DNA of 64,000 nt from Myroides sp. JBRI-B21084 (GTDB taxonomy: Bacteria > Bacteroidota > Bacteroidia > Flavobacteriales > Flavobacteriaceae): the NCBI RefSeq assembly GCF_030545015.1, contig NZ_CP120653.1:124001-188000 (forward strand), read 5' to 3'. Below, piece by piece: positions 33,675-63,393 of the stretch. The translations under genes and the position numbers were made by a program. Under the pieces are notes generated by a model that saw only the letters and a list, made by a program, of their open reading frames with translations, was not told the DNA's origin and did no database searches. Position 1 is the first letter of the stretch. Every line of letters starts with the position of its first letter.

Positions 33675-34631
33675 TTAAAAAACTGCGGTTGCAACATTTT
33701 TAACTGTATCCGATTTTCCCATTGAATAATAATGAACAAATGGTATACCTGCTGCAATAATTTCTTTACTTTGTTGTATACACCATTCTATACCAATTTG
33801 TTTAACGGCGTTGTTTGTTTTTGCTTTTTGAACTTCGGTAACTAACGCATCAGGTAAATCTACTTTAAAACGATATGGAATTATGTTTAATTGATTTTTT
33901 GTTGTTAATGGCTTTAACCCAGGAATAATAGGTACTTTAATACCAGCTTTTCTGCAACTTGCAACAAAATCAAAAAACTTGGTATTATCAAAAAACATTT
34001 GTGTAACTATGTAATTTGCACCTTTTTCAATTTTTTGTTTTAAAAACTGCAAATCTGTATCAAAATTAGGTGCTTCCATATGCTTTTCAGGGTATGCCCC
34101 AACCCCAATACAAAAATTAGTATTGTGCGTGTTTTCAAGTTCATCATCTAAATAAATACCATTGTTTAATTGGGATATTTGTGTAACTAATTCCGAAGCA
34201 TATTTATGTCCGTTTTTTTCAGGTTTAAAGTAAATTTCACTCTTAACAGCATCGCCACGCAAAGCAACTACGTTGTCAATACCTAAAAAATTTAAATCAA
34301 TTAAAAAATTTTCGGTATCTTCTTTAGTAAATCCCCCACACAAAATATGTGGTACTGCATCAACCTTATATTTATTTTGTATAGCAGCACAAATACCCAC
34401 CGTTCCGGGGCGTTTTTTAACAATTTTTTTCTCAAGCAATCCGTTTCCAACATCTTTGTAGGTATGTTCTTCGCGGTGATACGTTACATCAATAAACGCG
34501 GGGTTAAATTCCATTAACGGATCAATTGTATCAAAAATACACTGAATGTTTTGACCTTTTAAAGGTGGTAAAATTTCAAACGAAAATAAAGCTTTTCCGT
34601 TTGAATTTTGTATATGTTCGGTAACTTTCAT
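33675..34631 (-). CDS. metF: 5,10-methylenetetrahydrofolate reductase
   Basis: The 318-residue FAD TIM-barrel enzyme makes 5-methyl-THF, the methyl donor for MetH. Motifs present are FSFEILPPLKG, FIDVTYHREE, ILCGGFTKED, VALRGDAVKSE, and GANYIVTQMFFDNTKFFDFV. It lies downstream of metH, separated by the palindromic intergenic element at 34648-34782. It may be transcribed from metX onward or from its own promoter. Confidence 0.96.
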   Translation of the reverse strand: MKVTEHIQNSNGKALFSFEILPPLKGQNIQCIFDTIDPLMEFNPAFIDVTYHREEHTYKDVGNGLLEKKIVKKRPGTVGICAAIQNKYKVDAVPHILCGGFTKEDTENFLIDLNFLGIDNVVALRGDAVKSEIYFKPEKNGHKYASELVTQISQLNNGIYLDDELENTHNTNFCIGVGAYPEKHMEAPNFDTDLQFLKQKIEKGANYIVTQMFFDNTKFFDFVASCRKAGIKVPIIPGLKPLTTKNQLNIIPYRFKVDLPDALVTEVQKAKTNNAVKQIGIEWCIQQSKEIIAAGIPFVHYYSMGKSDTVKNVATAVF

Positions 34632-34807: not shown

Positions 34808-37800
34808 TTATTCATTAATATTTGGACCAAGCCATTTGGCAGCTTCGTTAAAACTGATGCTTCTACGTTGAGCATAATCTTCCACCTGATCGTTTTTAAT
34901 TTTACCCACACCAAAATATTTAGCTTCTTTATTAGCAAAGTAATATCCCGATACCGATGAAGCTGGCCACATTGCCAAACTTTCGGTTAGTGTTACACCA
35001 ATTTCCTCAGCAACATTTAAAACGTTCCAAATAGTGTTTTTTTCTAAATGATCAGGACACGCTGGATAACCAGGAGCAGGACGAATGCCTATGTACGATT
35101 CATTAATTAAATCGTTATTGGTTAATTGTTCTGTAACAGCATACCCCCAAATTTCTTTTCGTACTTTTTCATGTAAATATTCAGCAAATGCTTCTGCAAA
35201 TCTGTCGCCCAATGCTTTAACCATTATTGCGTTATAATCGTCTTGTGCAGTTTCATATTCTTTGGCTTTTTCTTCAACTCCAAAACCAGTACTTACACAA
35301 AACAATCCAACATAATCGTTTATTCCCGTTGATTTTGGAGCAACAAAATCTGCTAACGCAATATTTGGTACATTGCCCGATTTTTGAGCCTGCTGACGCA
35401 ATGTTAACAACGTTGCTATTACTTCGTTTTTTTTATTTATCAAAGCAATATCATCATCGTTTATTTGGTTGGCTTTGTAAATTCCAATAATTCCTTTGGC
35501 TTTAAACCATTTTTCTAAAACCACTTTGTTTAACATTTTTTGAGCATCGTTAAATAAAATGGTAGCTTGTTCGCCCACAATGTTGTCGTTTAAAATATCG
35601 GGGTATTTACCAAAAAGCTGCCACGATCTAAAAAAAGGTGTCCAATCTATATACGGTACCAATTCTGATAAATCCACGTTCACCTGTTTTTTACCAAGAA
35701 AATTAGGCTTGACAATTTGTTGAGAATTCCAATCTATTTTGAATTTGTTTTTGCGGGCATCGGTTATTGAAATGTATTTTTTTTCATGAGCACGATTTAA
35801 GAAATCAAAACGTAATTTTTCGTATTCGTCTCTAATGTTTTGTTTGTAAATTTTGTTTTTATCGGGTTGTAATAAATTGTTAATTACCGTTACAGCACGC
35901 GAAGCATCGTTTACATGTACAACTGTTTGTGTATATTCGGGTGCAATTTTTACGGCAGTGTGTGCACGTGATGTTGTTGCACCGCCAATCATAATTGGAA
36001 TGTTGGTTTGTTTTTTTTCTAATTCTTTTGCTAAATGAACCATTTCATCTAATGATGGAGTAATTAAACCGCTTAAACCAATAACATCTACCTGTTCTTT
36101 TATCGCTGTTTCAATGATTTTTTCAGGTGGAACCATGACACCTAAATCAATAATTTCAAAATTATTACAAGCTAAAACTACGGCAACTATGTTTTTGCCA
36201 ATATCGTGCACATCGCCACGAACTGTTGCCATTAGTACTTTACCAGCCGATGAATTTTTTGTTACACCATTCTTTAATTTTTCTTCTTCAATAAAAGGCA
36301 ATAGATAAGCAACTGCTTTTTTCATTACCCGAGCCGATTTTACTACCTGTGGCAAAAACATTTTTCCCGAACCAAACAAATCGCCAACTACATTCATACC
36401 ATTCATTAAGTATTGTTCAATTACTTGAATAGGTCTTTCTACAGTTAGCCTTGCCTCTTCTACATCGGTGTTAATAAATTCCTCTATACCTTTAACCAAA
36501 GCATGTGTGATACGTTTTTGTAAACTTTGTGATCTCCATTCTAAAATTTTTTCTTCTTTAATTTTAGTTTCACCTTTTAAATGTTCTGCAAAATCAAGTA
36601 ATCTTTCGGTTGCATCGCTTCTACGGTTTAACAACACATCTTCAACAAAAACAAGCAATTCGGGGGTTACTTCATCGTATATTTCTAGTAGTTCAGGATT
36701 TACAATTCCCATGTTCATACCGTATTGAATTGCATGATACAAAAATGCAGCATGTAACGCTTCGCGCACACTATTGTTGCCGCGAAATGAAAAGGAAACA
36801 TTGCTTACACCGCCCGAAACATTTGTGTATGGTAGATTTTTACGAATCCATTTTGTTGCACGAAAAAAATCAACAGCATTATTATTGTGTTCTTCCATTC
36901 CTGTGGCTACTGGGAATATGTTTGGATCGAAGATGATGTCTTGTGGTGGAAAACCAACTTCGTGAACCAAAATGTCATACGATCGTTTACAAATATCAAT
37001 TCGTCTTTGATAGGTGTCTGCTTGTCCCGTTTCATCAAACGCCATAACAACAACTGCAGCGCCATAACGCTTAATTAATTGAGCTTGCTGAATAAATAGT
37101 TTTTCACCTTCTTTTAAACTAATAGAATTTACAATTCCCTTGCCTTGAATGGTTTGTAAACCAGCTTCTATAATTTCCCATTTAGAACTATCTATCATTA
37201 TAGGAACTCGGGCAATGTCTGGTTCAGATGCAATTAAGTTTAAAAAATTAACCATTGCTTCTTTGCCATCTAACATTCCTTCGTCCATATTGATGTCGAT
37301 AATCTGTGCGCCGTTTTCAACTTGTAAACGCGCAATATCTAAAGCTTCTGAGTAGTTTTCTTCGTTTATTAATCTCAGAAATTTTTTAGAACCTGTAACA
37401 TTGGTTCGTTCGCCAATATTTATAAAATTTGATTCTTTTGTTACAAAAAGAGGTTCTAAACCAGAGAGCGTTAAAATAGGTTTCGGTTTTATTTCATCAA
37501 TTTCCCTATTGTTTCTTAATGCATTGTACTGCGTAACGGTATTGGCAATTAAACGAATGTGTTCGGGATTAGTGCCACAACAACCGCCAATTATTTGTAC
37601 CAAATCTTCCTTTAAAAAATCGGCAATAAATTGTTGCATTTCGTCTGGCGATTGGTCGTATTCGCCAAAGGCATTTGGTAGACCTGCATTTGGATGCGCC
37701 GAAATATTTACAGATGTGTGCTGTGCCAACTGTTTTAAATAAGGTTTAAGTTGCTCTGCACCTAAAGCACAGTTAAAACCGATACTTAACAACGGAATAT

Positions 37801-38515
37801 GCGAAATTGAAATTAAAAAAGCATCTACTGTTTGTCCTGATAACGTTCTGCCTGAAGCATCGGTAATTGTTCCAGAAACCATGATTGGAATATCGATATT
37901 TCTTTCGATTTTTACTTCTTCAATTGCAAACAAAGCAGCTTTTGCATTTAAGGTATCAAAAATAGTTTCAACCAAAAGCAAATCACAACCACCGTCTAGC
38001 AATGCTTCAATTTGTTGTTTGTACGCTATAAGTAAATCTTTAAATGTAATAGTGCGATATCCCGGATTGTTTACATCGGGACTCATTGATGCTGTGCGGT
38101 TTGTAGGTCCAATTGATCCAGCAACAAACCGAGGTTTGTTGGGCGTGATTTTATCAAATTCATCACAAACTTCTCGTGCAATTTTAGCCGACTGATAGTT
38201 TAATTGATATACATAATCTTCTAAATAATAATCGGCCATACCTATTGTTGTAGATGAAAAGGTATTGGTTTCAATAATATCGGCACCAGCTTGTAGGTAT
38301 TTTCGGTGAACTTCTTTAACTGCTTCGGGCTGTGTTATAGAAAGTAAATCATTATTTCCTTTTAACGGATGTTTAAAATCTTGAAATTGCTTGCCACGAA
38401 AGTCATCTTCGGTAAACTGATATGCCTGTAACATGGTACCCATGGCGCCATCTAAAACCAAAGTTTTGTGTTTTATAATTTCGGTAATAGATTTTTTATT
38501 ACAAATTGTTTCCAT
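34808..38515 (-). CDS. metH: Cobalamin-dependent methionine synthase, full length
   Basis: The 1235-residue enzyme methylates homocysteine. In order: a homocysteine/zinc domain ([34 protein letters not shown]), a folate pterin-binding domain ([26 protein letters not shown]), a helical cap, a B12 domain with DVHDIGKN (base-off His), and a SAM-dependent reactivation domain with [15 protein letters not shown]. All four modules are in one chain. Its start overlaps the metZ stop by one base. Confidence 0.98.
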
Positions 38516-39672
38516 TATAAAAAGGCATTATTTAGTTCGGTTATAATATCATCAATATGCTCTAAACCAACGGAAATACGTATTAAACCTTCGGTTAAAT
38601 TAGCTTGGGCAAGTTCGGTAGCGTTTAACTTACTGTGTGTTGAGGTAGCTGGATGGGTAACAATAGTACGCGTATCGCCTAAGTTTGCCGATATTGAAAA
38701 CAATTTTGTTGAATTGATAAACTTTTTACCAGCTTCTTTACCACCTTTTAACTCAAAAGCAATAATGTTTCCACCTAATTTCATTTGTTTTTTTGCAATT
38801 TGATATTGCGGATGTGATGGTAAAAATGGATATTTCACAAAGGATACCGCCGGATGGTTTTCTAAAAATTGAGCTACTTTAAACGCGTTTTTGCAATGTT
38901 TTTCTACTCTAATAGCTAATGTTTCTAAACTTTTAGAAAAAATCCAGGCATTGAAAGGTGCAAGGGAAGGCCCTGTGTTACGCGAAAAAAGGTAAATTTC
39001 GCGTATTAAATTTTTTAAGCCAACCGTTATACCACCTAATGCTCTGCCTTGCCCGTCGATTAATTTTGTAGCCGAATGAATTACCAAATGGGCGCCAAAA
39101 TTAATAGGGTTTTGTATGATTGGGGTAGCAAATGTATTGTCAACAATTAATAAAAGGTTGTGCTTTTTAGCCAAATTGCCTAAAAATTCTAAATCAATTA
39201 ATTCAACACCAGGGTTTGTAGGTGTTTCAACAAACAAAATTTTAGTGTTTGTTTGTATTTTAGATTCAATGGTTTCAACCTTATTAATGTTGAAATATGT
39301 TGTTTCTATGTTCCATTTTGGTAGATATTTAGTGAATAAAGTGTGTGTTGAACCAAAAAGGCTACTTGCCGAAACAATATGATCGCCACTGTTTAAAAAA
39401 GGTATTAATGTATTGTAAACAGCAGCCATTCCGGTTGCAAAAGCAACACCATCTTCGGCATTTTCTAGCATTACCATTTTTTCAATAAACTCTGTTACGT
39501 TCGGGTTGCTAAAGCGTGAATAAATGTTTCTGTCTTTTTCTTCGGCAAAAGAAGCACGCATATCTTCGGCGTCTTCAAAAACAAAGCTTGATGTTAAAAA
39601 CAAAGGCGAACTATGTTCTAAATAATGTGTGCGTTCTGTTTGTTGTCTTATTGCTAATGTTTCTTTTTTCAT
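38515..39672 (-). CDS. metZ: O-succinyl/O-acetylhomoserine sulfhydrylase
   Basis: The 385-residue Cys/Met-metabolism PLP enzyme carries PLP Lys in [18 protein letters not shown] and [15 protein letters not shown]. It should form homocysteine directly from activated homoserine and sulfide, bypassing cystathionine. It follows thrA by 2 bp. Because MetX is next to it, O-acetylhomoserine is the more probable substrate; family-level sequence cannot settle this. Confidence 0.92.
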
Positions 39673-39674
39673 AA

Positions 39675-42080
39675 TTATTTTTTTTCTGCTAAACGTAAAA
39701 TATCTCCAAAAACCCCGCGAGCTGTGACATGTGCCCCCGCACCTGCACCTTGAATAATAATGGGTTTTTCGCCGTAAGATTCGGTATAAATCTCAAAAAT
39801 ACTATCTGAGCCCGATAATTGGCCAAGAGCCGAATTTTTATTAACTTTAATTAGTTTAGTTTCTAATAAGCCTTTTTGTTGTTGTAAATCGCCCGATAAT
39901 TCACCAACGTATCGCAAAACTTCGTTTGGTTGCAGTTGTTTTTTAAGATTGTTATAAAAGGCATCTAAACCATTTAATTGTTCTAAGAAATTTGAAACTG
40001 ATAGCGTTTGAAATTCGTTTGGAATTAAGTTTTGAATTGTTATATCGTGTAATTCATTTTCTAAATCTAATTCACGAGCAAGAATTAATAATTTACGTGC
40101 AACATCTGTACCCGACAAATCATCACGTGGATCGGGTTCGGTATATCCATTTTTAACAGCATCTTTTAAAACTTCTGAAAAAGGAATTTCTTCAACAGAA
40201 AATCGATTAAAAATGTAACTTAAAGTTCCAGAAAAAACACCTTTTATTTTAGTAATGTTTTCGCCGGATAAATGCAATAATTTAATATTGTCAATTAAAG
40301 GCAAACCTGCACCAACATTGGTTTCGTATAAATATTGTTTTTGATTTGTTTTTAAATTTTCGCGTAAATTTTTGTAAAAATCAAATGATAAAGTATTTGC
40401 AATTTTGTTTGATGAAACAATATCAAATCCATTACTTATAAAATTATTGTAACAATTTGGAAGTGATGCTGCAGCTGTATTATCAATTAAAATTAAATTT
40501 TCTAAATGATGTTCTTTTGCATAATTAATAATTGTTGAAAGCGAATGAGGTTGTGTTTTTTTAAAATGTTCTTGCCAGTTTTTGTTGAACCCATTTGAGT
40601 TAAAGTAAATAGACTTTGAATCTGCAATTGCAAAAATGTTTAAATCGATGTTTTTACGTTTAGAAATTTGATCTTTTGATGCAATAATTTGATCAATTAA
40701 CACGCTACCAACAGTTCCTTTACCAATTACAGCTATGTTTACCGTTTTATTTACACCAAAAATTTGTCCATGAATTACATGCAATGCTTTTTTAAATTGT
40801 TGTTTTTCTATTACTAAGCTTATGTTTTTGCCAGAAACTGAATTGTTAAATAAGATAGGAGTAATGCCGTTTTTTACCAATGCACTATAAGGTTTGTGAA
40901 ACGATTTTAAATCCTGACCAATAATTGAAACAACAGCAATATTGTTGTTAATGCTAATGTTTTCAACATCTTTGGTATAAAAGTCATACTGAAATTCTTG
41001 TTCTAGTAATTCTTTTGCTAAAAGGGCTTCTTCGTTATTCACAACAAATCCTAGACCACGTTCAGACGAACCTTGTGCAATTACGCTTACACTAATGTTG
41101 CTTTTTGCTAATGCATTAAAAATTCGGGCATCAACACCTACTTTACCAAATAAACCTTTGCCATGAAAATTAATTAAAGCCACGTTTTCAAGTACAGTTA
41201 ACGATTTTACTCCAATTGGTGTTGGTTCATCAGAAATTAACGTTCCTGTGCTTTGTTGGTTTAAAGTATTTAAAATACGTAAAGGAATTTTCTTTTCAAT
41301 TAAAGGAACAATGGTTTTTGCATGTAAAATAGATGCACCTAAAGTTGCTAATTCATTTGCATCACTGTAGTTAAGCTGTTCAATTCGTTTAGCCGATGCT
41401 ACCCATTCAGGGTTTGCGGTATAAATACCATCAACATGAGTAAAATTTAAAAATTCTTCTGCTTGAATAAAGTTTGCTATTAGTGACGCCGTTAAATTGC
41501 TGCCATTTCTGCCCAATGTTGTAATGTCGTTTTCTAAAGTACTACCAACAAATCCACCTAAAATAATTAAGTCATTGGTTGTTAATTGGTTAAATAATTT
41601 TGTGGTGGCTATTTCTGTCACCGTTTCGTTTACGTTAGCAGATCCAAAATTAGCATCGGTTTTAATTATTTGCGTACTATCTACGTAAGTGGCTTTTAAT
41701 TTGTTGTTTATTAATAATTGTGTGATTACTTTGGAGCTGATGAGTTCGCCTTGGGCTAACAATAAATCTTGTACTTTTAAGCTGTAATCTTGAATTAACG
41801 AAACGCCATGTAAAATGTTTTCAATTAATTTAAAATGCTCATCGGTATTAATTTCAGGGTAAAAGTTTAATGCTTTAAGTTTTTTTAAATCTTTGGTGTA
41901 AGTTTTGTTTTCTTTTGCTTTTTTTAGCATTTCTAATAACAAATCGGTTGTATTTCCAATTGCAGAAACAACTATAATTAATGATGATTTTTGTAAATGG
42001 CTAATTATAATATTTATAATATTTTGGTTAGTATGTAAACTAGCTAATGATTTGCCTCCAAATTTTAATACTTTGCTCAT
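39675..42080 (-). CDS. thrA: Bifunctional aspartokinase / homoserine dehydrogenase
   Basis: The 801-residue protein has an N-terminal aspartokinase (VLKFGGKSLASLHTNQNI ... NFTHVDGIYTANP), two ACT-like regulatory repeats (about 305-455) and a homoserine dehydrogenase (VAVIGKGTVGSVLIDQI-type motif, NVGAGLPLIDNIKLL, KGVFSGTLSYIFNRF, EPDPRDDLSGTDVARKLLILARE). It supplies homoserine from aspartate for methionine. Placement within the met operon suggests a Met-dedicated isozyme. Its start overlaps the metX stop (ATGA). Confidence 0.95.
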   Translation of the reverse strand: MSKVLKFGGKSLASLHTNQNIINIIISHLQKSSLIIVVSAIGNTTDLLLEMLKKAKENKTYTKDLKKLKALNFYPEINTDEHFKLIENILHGVSLIQDYSLKVQDLLLAQGELISSKVITQLLINNKLKATYVDSTQIIKTDANFGSANVNETVTEIATTKLFNQLTTNDLIILGGFVGSTLENDITTLGRNGSNLTASLIANFIQAEEFLNFTHVDGIYTANPEWVASAKRIEQLNYSDANELATLGASILHAKTIVPLIEKKIPLRILNTLNQQSTGTLISDEPTPIGVKSLTVLENVALINFHGKGLFGKVGVDARIFNALAKSNISVSVIAQGSSERGLGFVVNNEEALLAKELLEQEFQYDFYTKDVENISINNNIAVVSIIGQDLKSFHKPYSALVKNGITPILFNNSVSGKNISLVIEKQQFKKALHVIHGQIFGVNKTVNIAVIGKGTVGSVLIDQIIASKDQISKRKNIDLNIFAIADSKSIYFNSNGFNKNWQEHFKKTQPHSLSTIINYAKEHHLENLILIDNTAAASLPNCYNNFISNGFDIVSSNKIANTLSFDFYKNLRENLKTNQKQYLYETNVGAGLPLIDNIKLLHLSGENITKIKGVFSGTLSYIFNRFSVEEIPFSEVLKDAVKNGYTEPDPRDDLSGTDVARKLLILARELDLENELHDITIQNLIPNEFQTLSVSNFLEQLNGLDAFYNNLKKQLQPNEVLRYVGELSGDLQQQKGLLETKLIKVNKNSALGQLSGSDSIFEIYTESYGEKPIIIQGAGAGAHVTARGVFGDILRLAEKK

Positions 42081-43024
42081 AAATAAGGTGTTAATATGTT
42101 GTTTAATTTTTCTTGTTCTATTAAAAAAGCGTCGTGCCCGTGTGTTGAATCTAATGAATGATATGAAACATTTTTGCCGATTTTTTTAAGTGATTTAGCC
42201 CATTCTAATTGATAATTAGGATGAAACAACCAATCGGAAACGATGCTTATAATTACAAATTGCGTATGGGTATTTTGCGCTGCTTTTAAATAATGCTTTT
42301 TACTGGTTGTTTTTCCTATTGATCCTAACAAGTGGTTCATTATTTTGTATGATTTTTTAGGAAAACGTTTTTTTAAAGCTTTGCCATGGTAAAGTAGCCA
42401 CTGTTCTACAGTATTAGTATTTACTTTAAATTTATTGTTTATATCTAAAGCGTTTCGGTAGAACAACATCGACCACATTCTACTAAGTTCGTATCCCTTT
42501 TTTTGCTCTAAAAGCGCACTTTGTAAATACGTAACAGCTTTAATCCAATCATCTTTAAATGGACAAGCAGCAATACTAAACAAAGCATCAAATAAGCTAG
42601 GTTGTTCTTTCCACATTTCCCAAGCAATTACGCCGCCTAAACTGCCACCAATTATTAAAAGATCTTTTTTTAATTCTAATTCATTCAACAACCATAAGTT
42701 AATTAAAGCAATATCTTTAATTGTTACTTTTTTTATTGAATGTATATTTTCGTGGGTATTTGTTGCAAATCCGTTTCCTAAAGTATCAATACATAAAAGG
42801 TTGTATTTATTGGTATCAATAACTTTTAACGATCCCACTAATTCTTTCCACCAACCGTTTTCACCGGTAACTGTACTGTTTCCAGTTAGTGCATGTAAAA
42901 TAATGATTGTTGGTTTAGGTTTGTTATAATCACAAATCCACTGAAAACTAATTTCGCAGTTAGCATCAGAAAAGTGATTGGTAAAATTTTTAGGAATTAA
43001 TTTTTTGTTCATGGTTTGTTCCAT
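42077..43024 (-). CDS. metX: Homoserine O-acetyltransferase (short flavobacterial MetX)
   Basis: The alpha/beta-hydrolase-fold acyltransferase has nucleophile Ser in GGSLGGVIAWEMW, Asp in SDWLFHP and His in STHGHDAFL. The ATG at 43039 lies inside the attenuator hairpin, so I place the start at 43024 (MEQTMNKK, 315 residues); 43012 is also possible. It activates homoserine for sulfhydrylation by MetZ. It is the first structural gene of metX-thrA-metZ-metH and is controlled by the leader upstream. Confidence 0.93.
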   Translation of the reverse strand: MEQTMNKKLIPKNFTNHFSDANCEISFQWICDYNKPKPTIIILHALTGNSTVTGENGWWKELVGSLKVIDTNKYNLLCIDTLGNGFATNTHENIHSIKKVTIKDIALINLWLLNELELKKDLLIIGGSLGGVIAWEMWKEQPSLFDALFSIAACPFKDDWIKAVTYLQSALLEQKKGYELSRMWSMLFYRNALDINNKFKVNTNTVEQWLLYHGKALKKRFPKKSYKIMNHLLGSIGKTTSKKHYLKAAQNTHTQFVIISIVSDWLFHPNYQLEWAKSLKKIGKNVSYHSLDSTHGHDAFLIEQEKLNNILTPYL

Positions 43025-43059
43025 AAAAAAATCCTTCATGGCTATACCTGAAGGATTTT
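43025..43059 (-). terminator. Attenuator terminator of the methionine operon
   Basis: On the minus strand AAAATCCTTCA (43059-43049) pairs with TGAAGGATTTT (43038-43028) around a 10-base loop, followed by a run of seven T residues up to the metX ATG at 43024. An 11-bp perfect stem with a U tract is a strong intrinsic terminator, placed between leader peptide and metX. Confidence 0.85.
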
Positions 43060-43124
43060 ATAAAAGGTTTATAATTAGGTATAGGTCAACTTGATGCTTT
43101 ACGCATCATTCGCATTGTTGATCC
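43042..43124 (-). promoter_or_regulatory. Mutually exclusive leader-RNA pairings (antiterminator and protector) of the met attenuator
   Basis: CTATACCT (43084-43077) can pair with AGGTATAG (43049-43042), which includes the terminator loop and one base of its 5' arm: the antiterminator. GGATCAAC (43124-43117) can pair with GTTGACC (43090-43084), the protector, enclosing a small GATGC-type hairpin at 43092-43108. The protector and antiterminator compete at the leader stop codon. These complementarities are read directly; the mechanism is inferred. Confidence 0.65.
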
Positions 43125-43148
43125 CATTAGGTTTTTAGATGTTGTCAT
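43086..43148 (-). CDS. Methionine leader peptide (attenuation ORF)
   Basis: The 20-codon ORF encodes MTTSKNLMGSTMRMMRKASS. Five of 20 residues are Met, with codons 12, 14 and 15 clustered as ATG CGA ATG ATG. It lies between a consensus promoter (43171-43200) and a terminator hairpin, with its stop codon one base from the antiterminator segment. Low charged tRNA-Met should stall the ribosome in the Met cluster, open the protector, permit antitermination and let metX-thrA-metZ-metH be read. Completion of the peptide should mask the segment and allow termination. No product function is expected for the peptide itself. Confidence 0.8.
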   Translation of the reverse strand: MTTSKNLMGSTMRMMRKASS

Positions 43149-43170
43149 TATAAATATATAAATTACACTG

Positions 43171-43200
43171 CAAATGTAATGTAATATTTTCTGTGTGCAA
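43171..43200 (-). promoter_or_regulatory. Promoter of the methionine operon
   Basis: TTG (43200-43198), a 19-bp spacer and TACATTTG (43178-43171) match the consensus exactly. The predicted start site leaves about 20 nt before the leader ATG at 43148. Confidence 0.78.
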
Positions 43201-58504: not shown

Positions 58505-58577
<73 letters not shown>

Positions 58578-58602
58578 CAAAAATAATTGAGTTTTATAAC
58601 TC

Positions 58603-58675
<73 letters not shown>

Positions 58676-58701
58676 CAAAAATAAATTGAGTTTTATAACT
58701 C

Positions 58702-58774
<73 letters not shown>

Positions 58775-62870: not shown

Positions 62871-62956
62871 TACTCAAGGCGGGACTTGAACCCGCACGAA
62901 CATTACTGTTCACTGGATTTTAAGTCCAGCGTGTCTACCAATTCCACCACTCGAGC
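62871..62956 (-). tRNA. tRNA-Leu (TAA), copy 3 in transcription order
   Basis: The 86-nt class II tRNA has acceptor GCTCGAG/CTTGAGT, anticodon loop reading TAA within GGACTTAAAATCC, a long variable arm, T loop GGTTCAAGTCC. CCA is not encoded. Confidence 0.95.
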
Positions 62957-62972
62957 AAATGAATAGAATTTG

Positions 62973-63045
62973 AGCGAAAAACGGGGTTCGAACCCGCGAC
63001 CTCAACCTTGGCAAGGTTGCGCTCTACCAACTGAGCTATTTTCGC
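62973..63045 (-). tRNA. tRNA-Gly (GCC), copy 2 in transcription order
   Basis: 73 nt; acceptor GCGAAAA/TTTTCGC, anticodon stem-loop CAACC-TTGCCAA-GGTTG giving GCC, T loop GGTTCGAACCC. Confidence 0.95.
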
Positions 63046-63068
63046 AAATACATAAAAAAAAACGTTAG

Positions 63069-63154
63069 TACTCAAGGCGGGACTTGAACCCGCACGAACA
63101 TTACTGTTCACTGGATTTTAAGTCCAGCGTGTCTACCAATTCCACCACTCGAGC
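63069..63154 (-). tRNA. tRNA-Leu (TAA), copy 2 in transcription order
   Basis: Same sequence as the tRNA-Leu at 62871-62956. Confidence 0.95.
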
Positions 63155-63169
63155 AGTTGTAGTAACGTG

Positions 63170-63242
63170 AGCGAAAAACGGGGTTCGAACCCGCGACCTC
63201 AACCTTGGCAAGGTTGCGCTCTACCAACTGAGCTATTTTCGC
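63170..63242 (-). tRNA. tRNA-Gly (GCC), copy 1 in transcription order
   Basis: Same sequence as the tRNA-Gly at 62973-63045, alternating with the tRNA-Leu copies. Confidence 0.95.
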
Positions 63243-63307
63243 AATTCATATTTTTTTTTGAACGTGTTGCAAAATTATTAAAAAAAATAATATTTGCAAA
63301 TAAAAAG

Positions 63308-63393
63308 TACTCAAGGCGGGACTTGAACCCGCACGAACATTACTGTTCACTGGATTTTAAGTCCAGCGTGTCTACCAATTCCACCACTCGAGC
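63308..63393 (-). tRNA. tRNA-Leu (TAA), copy 1 in transcription order
   Basis: Same sequence as the other two tRNA-Leu genes. It is the first gene of the array after the promoter at 63436-63465. Confidence 0.95.

Follow-up and report, generated by a model that had tools for sequence, protein, structure and literature searches.

A putative methionine-specific transcription attenuator upstream of metX in Myroides and Met- and Cys-rich leaders in other Flavobacteriaceae

Introduction

How transcription into the methionine biosynthesis genes of Myroides sp. JBRI-B21084 is controlled is a question raised by a short stretch of DNA lying upstream of metX. Leader-peptide attenuators that respond to an amino acid are known from trpL, hisL, leuL, thrL and pheL, and among the amino-acid pathways controlled in this way methionine usually stands apart, its genes being governed by SAM riboswitches, T-boxes or MetJ. 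A preliminary description of this stretch, made from its letters alone, proposed a methionine-specific attenuator with a Met-rich leader peptide. The present analysis covers the window, that is, the whole 64,000-nucleotide stretch at positions 124,001 to 188,000 of contig NZ_CP120653.1, together with leaders from relatives. The elements named in that description are all confirmed at this place on the minus strand, and two features go beyond its account: the antiterminator pairs with only part of the terminator, its upper stem and loop, and leaders of the same layout are common across the Flavobacteriaceae, often in tandem.

Anatomy of the leader and its operon

The leader and the genes that follow it comprise the following features.

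43200..43198 and 43178..43171, minus strand: promoter, TTG followed by TACATTTG, read from the sequence and kept in relatives
43086..43148, minus strand: leader ORF MTTSKNLMGSTMRMMRKASS, 20 codons from ATG at 43148 to the stop TGA at 43086
43117..43127, minus strand: protector 5' arm AUGGGAUCAAC, from sequence and fold, overlapping Met codon 8
43092..43108, minus strand: inner hairpin UGAUGC-GUAAA-GCAUCA of 6 bp, predicted by folding inside the protector
43081..43090, minus strand: protector 3' arm GUUGACCUAU, which shares bases with both the leader stop codon and the antiterminator
43077..43084, minus strand: antiterminator 5' strand CUAUACCU, from sequence comparison
43042..43049, minus strand: antiterminator 3' strand AGGUAUAG, within the upper stem and loop of the terminator
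43025..43059, minus strand: intrinsic terminator, arms 43059-43049 and 43038-43028, T7 at 43031-43025
42077..43012, minus strand: metX-like homoserine acyltransferase of 311 aa; scores highest with the MetX model (147 bits; curated cut-off 331)
39675..42080, minus strand: thrA, aspartate kinase/homoserine dehydrogenase I, 742.9 bits (cut-off 726)
38515..39672, minus strand: metZ-like sulfhydrylase; scores highest with the O-succinylhomoserine sulfhydrylase model (502 bits; cut-off 522)
34808..38515, minus strand: metH, methionine synthase, profile match
33675..34631, minus strand: metF, methylenetetrahydrofolate reductase, profile match

The promoter at 43200-43171 is of the Bacteroidetes type, for which the consensus is TTG/TANNTTTG. 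The leader ORF carries Met at codons 1, 8, 12, 14 and 15, which makes five of its 20 codons, and its Met run is kept in relatives. It is followed by a terminator whose 11-bp stem, with seven T residues behind it, is seen in both the sequence and the fold and is extended by a short upper stem. Two competing pairings, both of which could be located, overlap at the leader stop codon. The first is the protector, which was originally quoted too short and with a bulged A omitted; the pairing itself is present, as AUGGG(A)UCAAC/GUUGACCUAU, and measures 10 bp with one bulged A. The second, CUAUACCU/AGGUAUAG, is a conserved 8-bp antiterminator that touches only the upper stem and loop of the terminator, not its whole 5' arm.

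Such a combination is rare by chance. The leader region folds with a z-score of -3.82, and none of 200 shuffles folded as well. A detector requiring a short ORF with at least three Met, a terminator and an antiterminator of at least 7 nt picked out this leader and nothing else when run over the two strands of the 64-kb window, at that setting and again at four or more Met, where five whole-window shuffles gave no match. One might suspect nothing more than a usual promoter, a terminator that leaks and an ORF present by accident, as AT-rich DNA commonly holds short ORFs; however, in 5000 dinucleotide shuffles the 186-nt leader never yielded an ORF with at least four Met together with a terminator and an antiterminator of at least 8 nt, and the leader is conserved in relatives, which leaves coincidence barely credible.

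The genes downstream would be co-transcribed as metX-thrA-metZ-metH-metF. The metX and metZ scores lie under the NCBIfam curated cut-offs, so both genes are named from their highest-scoring model and their surroundings. The preliminary description also placed the first ATG of metX inside the terminator and read this as changing the metX start. The first in-frame ATG does lie within the terminator, at 43039, and the shift is supported by a relative (L132) in which an ATG right behind the T-run is followed one codon on by a stop; the following ATG, the equivalent of 43012 in the window, must therefore open metX in that relative. Judged from this comparison of starts, ATG 43012 is the likely true start of metX in the window.

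The window's metX and thrA are separate genes that overlap by four bases. Across many genera of the family, the open frame that holds the metX match is much longer, at about 1130-1180 codons, as would be expected had metX fused with a gene next to it, perhaps thrA.

Proposed switching mechanism

The leader very probably acts as a transcription attenuator in which the translating ribosome gauges how much elongator Met-tRNA is available; ribosome stalling and termination in vivo are the presumed steps between signal and response. When charged Met-tRNA is ample, the ribosome would pass the Met codons, reach the leader stop and cover CUAUACCU, allowing the terminator to form. When Met-tRNA is short, the ribosome would pause at codons 12-15, masking the 5' arm of the protector and thereby freeing CUAUACCU, which could then pair with the nascent AGGUAUAG before the 3' arm of the terminator exists; the antiterminated RNA polymerase would proceed into metX-thrA-metZ-metH-metF. 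If the leader is untranslated, the protector would sequester CUAUACCU and the terminator would again form. Since methionine also initiates translation, severe starvation would halt initiation on the leader as well.

Folding calculations, which ignore pseudoknots, agree with a switch of this kind. In the stretch of RNA that a ribosome stalled at codon 15 leaves uncovered, and before the terminator 3' arm has emerged, the antiterminator has a pairing probability of 0.96-1.00 in six of six sequences of the leader family described below. Its probability falls to 0.00 once the full RNA is out; the terminator thus wins at equilibrium, and the antiterminator must act kinetically. In this model, exclusion of the terminator by the antiterminator would be both steric and kinetic.

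The spacing of the leader bears on the same point, and the argument here uses the size of the ribosome footprint. In all six sequences 22 nt separate the last Met codon from the antiterminator, a placement of the regulatory codons at which a stalled ribosome would leave the antiterminator free. The ribosome covers about 12 nt downstream (PMC4833913).

Conservation of the leader in close relatives

Leaders of the window's kind (type A) are carried by Paenimyroides baculatum (L032), an uncultured Myroides MAG (L031) and the genomes G506 (L130) and G304 (L129). All four encode the peptide MTTTNLYKM(D/Y)MFMMMRKAS, with the same antiterminator as the window and nearly the same terminator, and the L032 leader is identical to that of L130. 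Two further leaders are more divergent: MIIFNNNMAMTMMMHKASG in G403 (L132), which precedes metX, and MNNIVKNQQMVMMMMHKASR in G459 (L133), which precedes metY, another methionine gene. A covariance model (R2) run against 398 genomes of the genus matched six, namely the window genome, G304, G506, G403, G459 and G413, the last of which was taken as a chance match.

Five relatives were compared with the window, of which three (L031, L129 and L130) are near-identical to each other and the others are L132 and L133; type A accordingly comprises six sequences, three of them near-identical. The comparison with relatives that the preliminary description had suggested turned out in favour of its reading: the Met codons and the alternative stems are kept in all five, and the protector arms differ on both sides. 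The relatives retain four to five internal Met codons and the ending MM(R/H)KAS, and the N-terminal half of the peptide varies. Together with the fixed distance from the Met run to the antiterminator, this pattern supports the interpretation of the leader as a putative methionine attenuator.

The protector arms differ between the window, the Paenimyroides group and G403 yet remain complementary (AUGGG.UCAAC/GUUGACCUAU, GUUUAU/AUAAAC and GACUAU/AUAGUC). Paired with its own 3' arm, the 5' arm of the window reaches -11.4 kcal/mol, against -2.2 to -6.2 kcal/mol with those of the others, and that of G403 pairs at -9.2 kcal/mol with its own partner versus -2.6 to -8.5 kcal/mol with others. The 5' arms of L130 and L133 pair better with the 3' arm of G403 than with their own. 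Shuffled 5' arms paired as well in 0 of 1000 trials for the window, 14 of 1000 for L132, 71 of 1000 for L130 and 142 of 1000 for L133. The protector is therefore strong in the window and L132 and weak in L130 and L133. In an alignment of these leaders (A5), 90.3% of helix-1 cells are paired, with the covariation score reached in 1 of 500 shuffles and the number of pairs changed on both sides in 23 of 500; an indel in A5 misplaces the window's protector arm, so the direct pairing comparison is relied on instead. The antiterminator is invariant in seven of its eight pairs across type A, for which reason covariation provides no test of it.

The exact string ATGATGCGTAAAGC occurs in 22 genomes and belongs to a leader in only three, those of the window, G506 and G304; in the remaining 19 it stands in a different reading context, and these occurrences were rejected as leaders. 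A search of other genera with a further model (R3) matched 15 of 199 genomes at E<=0.01. The 14 loci outside the window were taken as chance matches: the detector gave Met-containing ORFs at five of them, none resembling a type A leader.

A second leader family and tandem leaders

Inspection of the DNA upstream of metX in relatives revealed other Met-rich leaders. A second family (type B), with a consensus of about MNxxxCNMCCMMW, is unrelated in sequence to the window's leader. A model built from five such leaders had matches at E<=0.01 in 177 of 249 genus genomes and, at E<=1e-4, in 16 of 199 family genomes; the window's own genome gave none. A total of 110 copies from 105 loci were parsed, consisting of 48 matches plus 62 of 67 from a second set, from which the five weakest (E 0.00046-0.0091) were dropped before counting; the copies include the five model seeds, one of them by way of L108, which has the same leader, and L115, at a contig edge, was left out.

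Downstream genes were identified by profile check in ten examples and otherwise by tblastn to four of those references or by eye. By tblastn, 70 of the 110 copies lie before metY (58 of these within 350 bases), 17 before metX, four before a metB/metC-like gene and one before cysH, with 18 unassigned. In four of the 17 assigned to metX, an OsmC-like ORF stands next to the leader and metX starts 1.0-1.4 kb from it. The 18 include leaders before cysD (L176), metH (L190) and a TonB-receptor gene (L204).

Type B peptides contain 20.5% Met and 7.9% Cys. At least three Met occur in 100 of the 110, the mean being 4.5 versus the 1.5 expected from base shuffling. The antiterminator consists of TCCGCAGAGG in the leader and CCTCTGC in the terminator, with variant pairs GCAAGGGC/GCCCTTGC (L154), GCAGCG/CGCTGC (L152 and L163) and GCGAAGGC/GCCTTTGC (L158). 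Leaders pair with their own terminators at -12.4 kcal/mol, compared with -11.0 kcal/mol for swapped partners and -6.8 kcal/mol for shuffled leaders; two of the 110 copies, having no parsed terminator or leader, were skipped. The Wilcoxon P of 3.6e-8 for own versus swapped partners (105 unique pairs) is too small, as the copies are related, and since the sequence is common to most copies, the median copy still pairs no worse with 36% of foreign partners than with its own. The distance between the last Met codon and the antiterminator core is 13-14 nt in 81 of the 94 copies measured among 108.

Among 93 anchored leaders, the pairing segment is read as TCC GCA GAG in 25 and as CCG CAG AGG in 24, and its middle codon is GCA in 39 and CAG in 38. 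This reading in two frames indicates that the segment is kept as RNA; the Met codons, by contrast, keep their frame.

A second leader (type C), holding six or more Met and Cys residues in all and having a terminator of its own, follows 65 of the 110 type B copies, examples being MIFNTNTMMMAMMMMNMMMFTTPYCLKSTS and MNVIAKNMMSCMMMHMMMCCIGICYYQKRKT. At least three Met are present in 64 of the 65 and at least two Cys in 58, and in 41 the leader end and the terminator share a complement of at least 7 nt (e.g., TTACCAAAAG). Searches of 550 shuffles and 110 reverse strands produced no type C leader. Types A, B and C have a common layout and unlike sequences.

The second family also bears on what the window's leader senses. 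The sensed amino acid is also the initiator of translation, and the conserved MM(R/H)KAS ending is what a nascent-chain stall would need as well, so that the leader could respond to initiation or to an effect of the nascent chain instead of to elongator Met-tRNA. Type B, which is unrelated, has Met runs but not this ending, and the RKAS stretch of type A coincides with the inner hairpin, so RNA structure can account for its conservation. Sensing of initiation or of the nascent chain is consequently improbable, and elongator Met-tRNA is the preferred signal.

Several other leaders were observed. Two Met/Cys-rich leaders, each with a terminator, stand in series before metY at L153, L155, L158, L160, L195 and L199, among others, and this arrangement could possibly act as a two-input gate on Met and Cys. 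At L006, L049, L056, L057, L059 and L062, a leader ending in VC (e.g., MNMNKMFNVALICVRVC) with a AAACCCTTTTGG terminator lies about 740-945 bases before metX, and this kind is perhaps a cysteine leader. Met-poor leaders with the type B layout (e.g., MKSIICHTYFFMWKDSAGVTVD) occur at L198, L208, L215, L216 and L218, where the protein encoded by the gene behind the leader resembles, by eye, the OsmC-like one of L093.

Riboswitches at the same genes

The genes under discussion are controlled by riboswitches elsewhere in the family. A SAM-I riboswitch stands directly before metX in six of 20 Flavobacteriaceae loci scanned (L006, L010, L037, L049, L053 and L055) and somewhere in 49 of 61 genomes of the genus sample, and at L151 a type B leader and a SAM-I riboswitch occur in series before metX. 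The window's own genome gave no SAM-I match and one SAM-II match, about 60 bases before a gene read from its sequence as metK. At Rfam gathering thresholds, no family matched any leader from the seven type A sources (the window, L031, L032, L129, L130, L132 and L133) or from 18 type B sources; this includes the T-box, and the scan of the window returned tRNAs only.

The use of SAM-I and SAM-II at the met genes of relatives, along with the conservation of the stems, would fit a riboswitch that has escaped recognition and binds SAM, methionine or homocysteine; the stems would then form the aptamer and the ORF would be incidental. Against this, no Rfam family was matched at the leader of the window or of the scanned type A relatives. 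The Met codons persist amid changing bases, and in type B they hold their frame although the pairing segment shifts its own. The predicted structure, moreover, consists of three simple helices, in which no large conserved unpaired core is seen. A riboswitch is thus highly improbable, and attenuation by a translating ribosome remains the preferred account of the leader.

Relation to known systems

The leader resembles trpL, hisL, leuL, thrL and pheL in having an ORF rich in the regulated amino acid, a protector, an antiterminator and an intrinsic terminator before a biosynthetic operon. It differs from trpL-type leaders in its methionine specificity, in sensing the amino acid that serves as initiator, in its Bacteroidetes host, in an antiterminator that pairs with the terminator loop and upper stem, and in that many relatives carry two leaders serially. 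Methionine is best explained here as a new specificity of a known mechanism, ribosome-mediated attenuation. SAM-I and SAM-II riboswitches control the same genes in Flavobacteriaceae relatives, although none precedes metX in the window genome; they sense SAM without translation.

A methionine leader peptide, metL, has been proposed before metNIQ in Streptomyces lividans and differs in its peptide (MSTTSDRTPATEATTTPGARCMCRRMCAF, with two internal Met), in reportedly being without a typical Rho-independent terminator and in preceding a transporter rather than biosynthesis genes (PMC8079986). For Met operons of Actinobacteria, no conserved RNA structure is reported upstream (PMC1262725). Within the Flavobacteriaceae, strong clues for leader attenuation before amino-acid operons are reported for Flavobacterium psychrophilum, a member of the same family, with methionine absent from the main text of that report (PMC9723704). 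The open-access passages covered, including ones from PMC2965389 and PMC7366714, describe no methionine leader attenuator in Bacteroidetes.

On a wider scale, it seems likely that the sulfur/methionine regulon of the Flavobacteriaceae (metY, metX, a metB/metC-like gene, metH, cysH, cysD and, apparently, OsmC-like and TonB-receptor genes) is under at least three sequence-unrelated kinds of Met/Cys leader-peptide attenuators, very often with two serially per gene as a Met-tRNA/Cys-tRNA two-input gate, which replace or supplement SAM riboswitches. If so, the long Met runs, with up to 11 Met in a leader, would let a shortage of elongator Met-tRNA register before initiation fails. A well-supported Met leader that is common in one family and matches no Rfam model in the scanned loci would extend attenuation to the amino acid that initiates proteins, would make the conflict between sensing elongator and initiator Met-tRNA testable, and would provide a case of one sensing system standing in for another at the same genes, with tandem leaders that look like two-input gates.

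Neither hisG nor ilvD was found in the window's own 2.5-Mb genome, which probably does without histidine or branched-chain amino-acid synthesis and yet keeps its methionine synthesis genes. The window also holds closely spaced tRNA genes repeated in tandem at 58505-58774 and 62871-63393.
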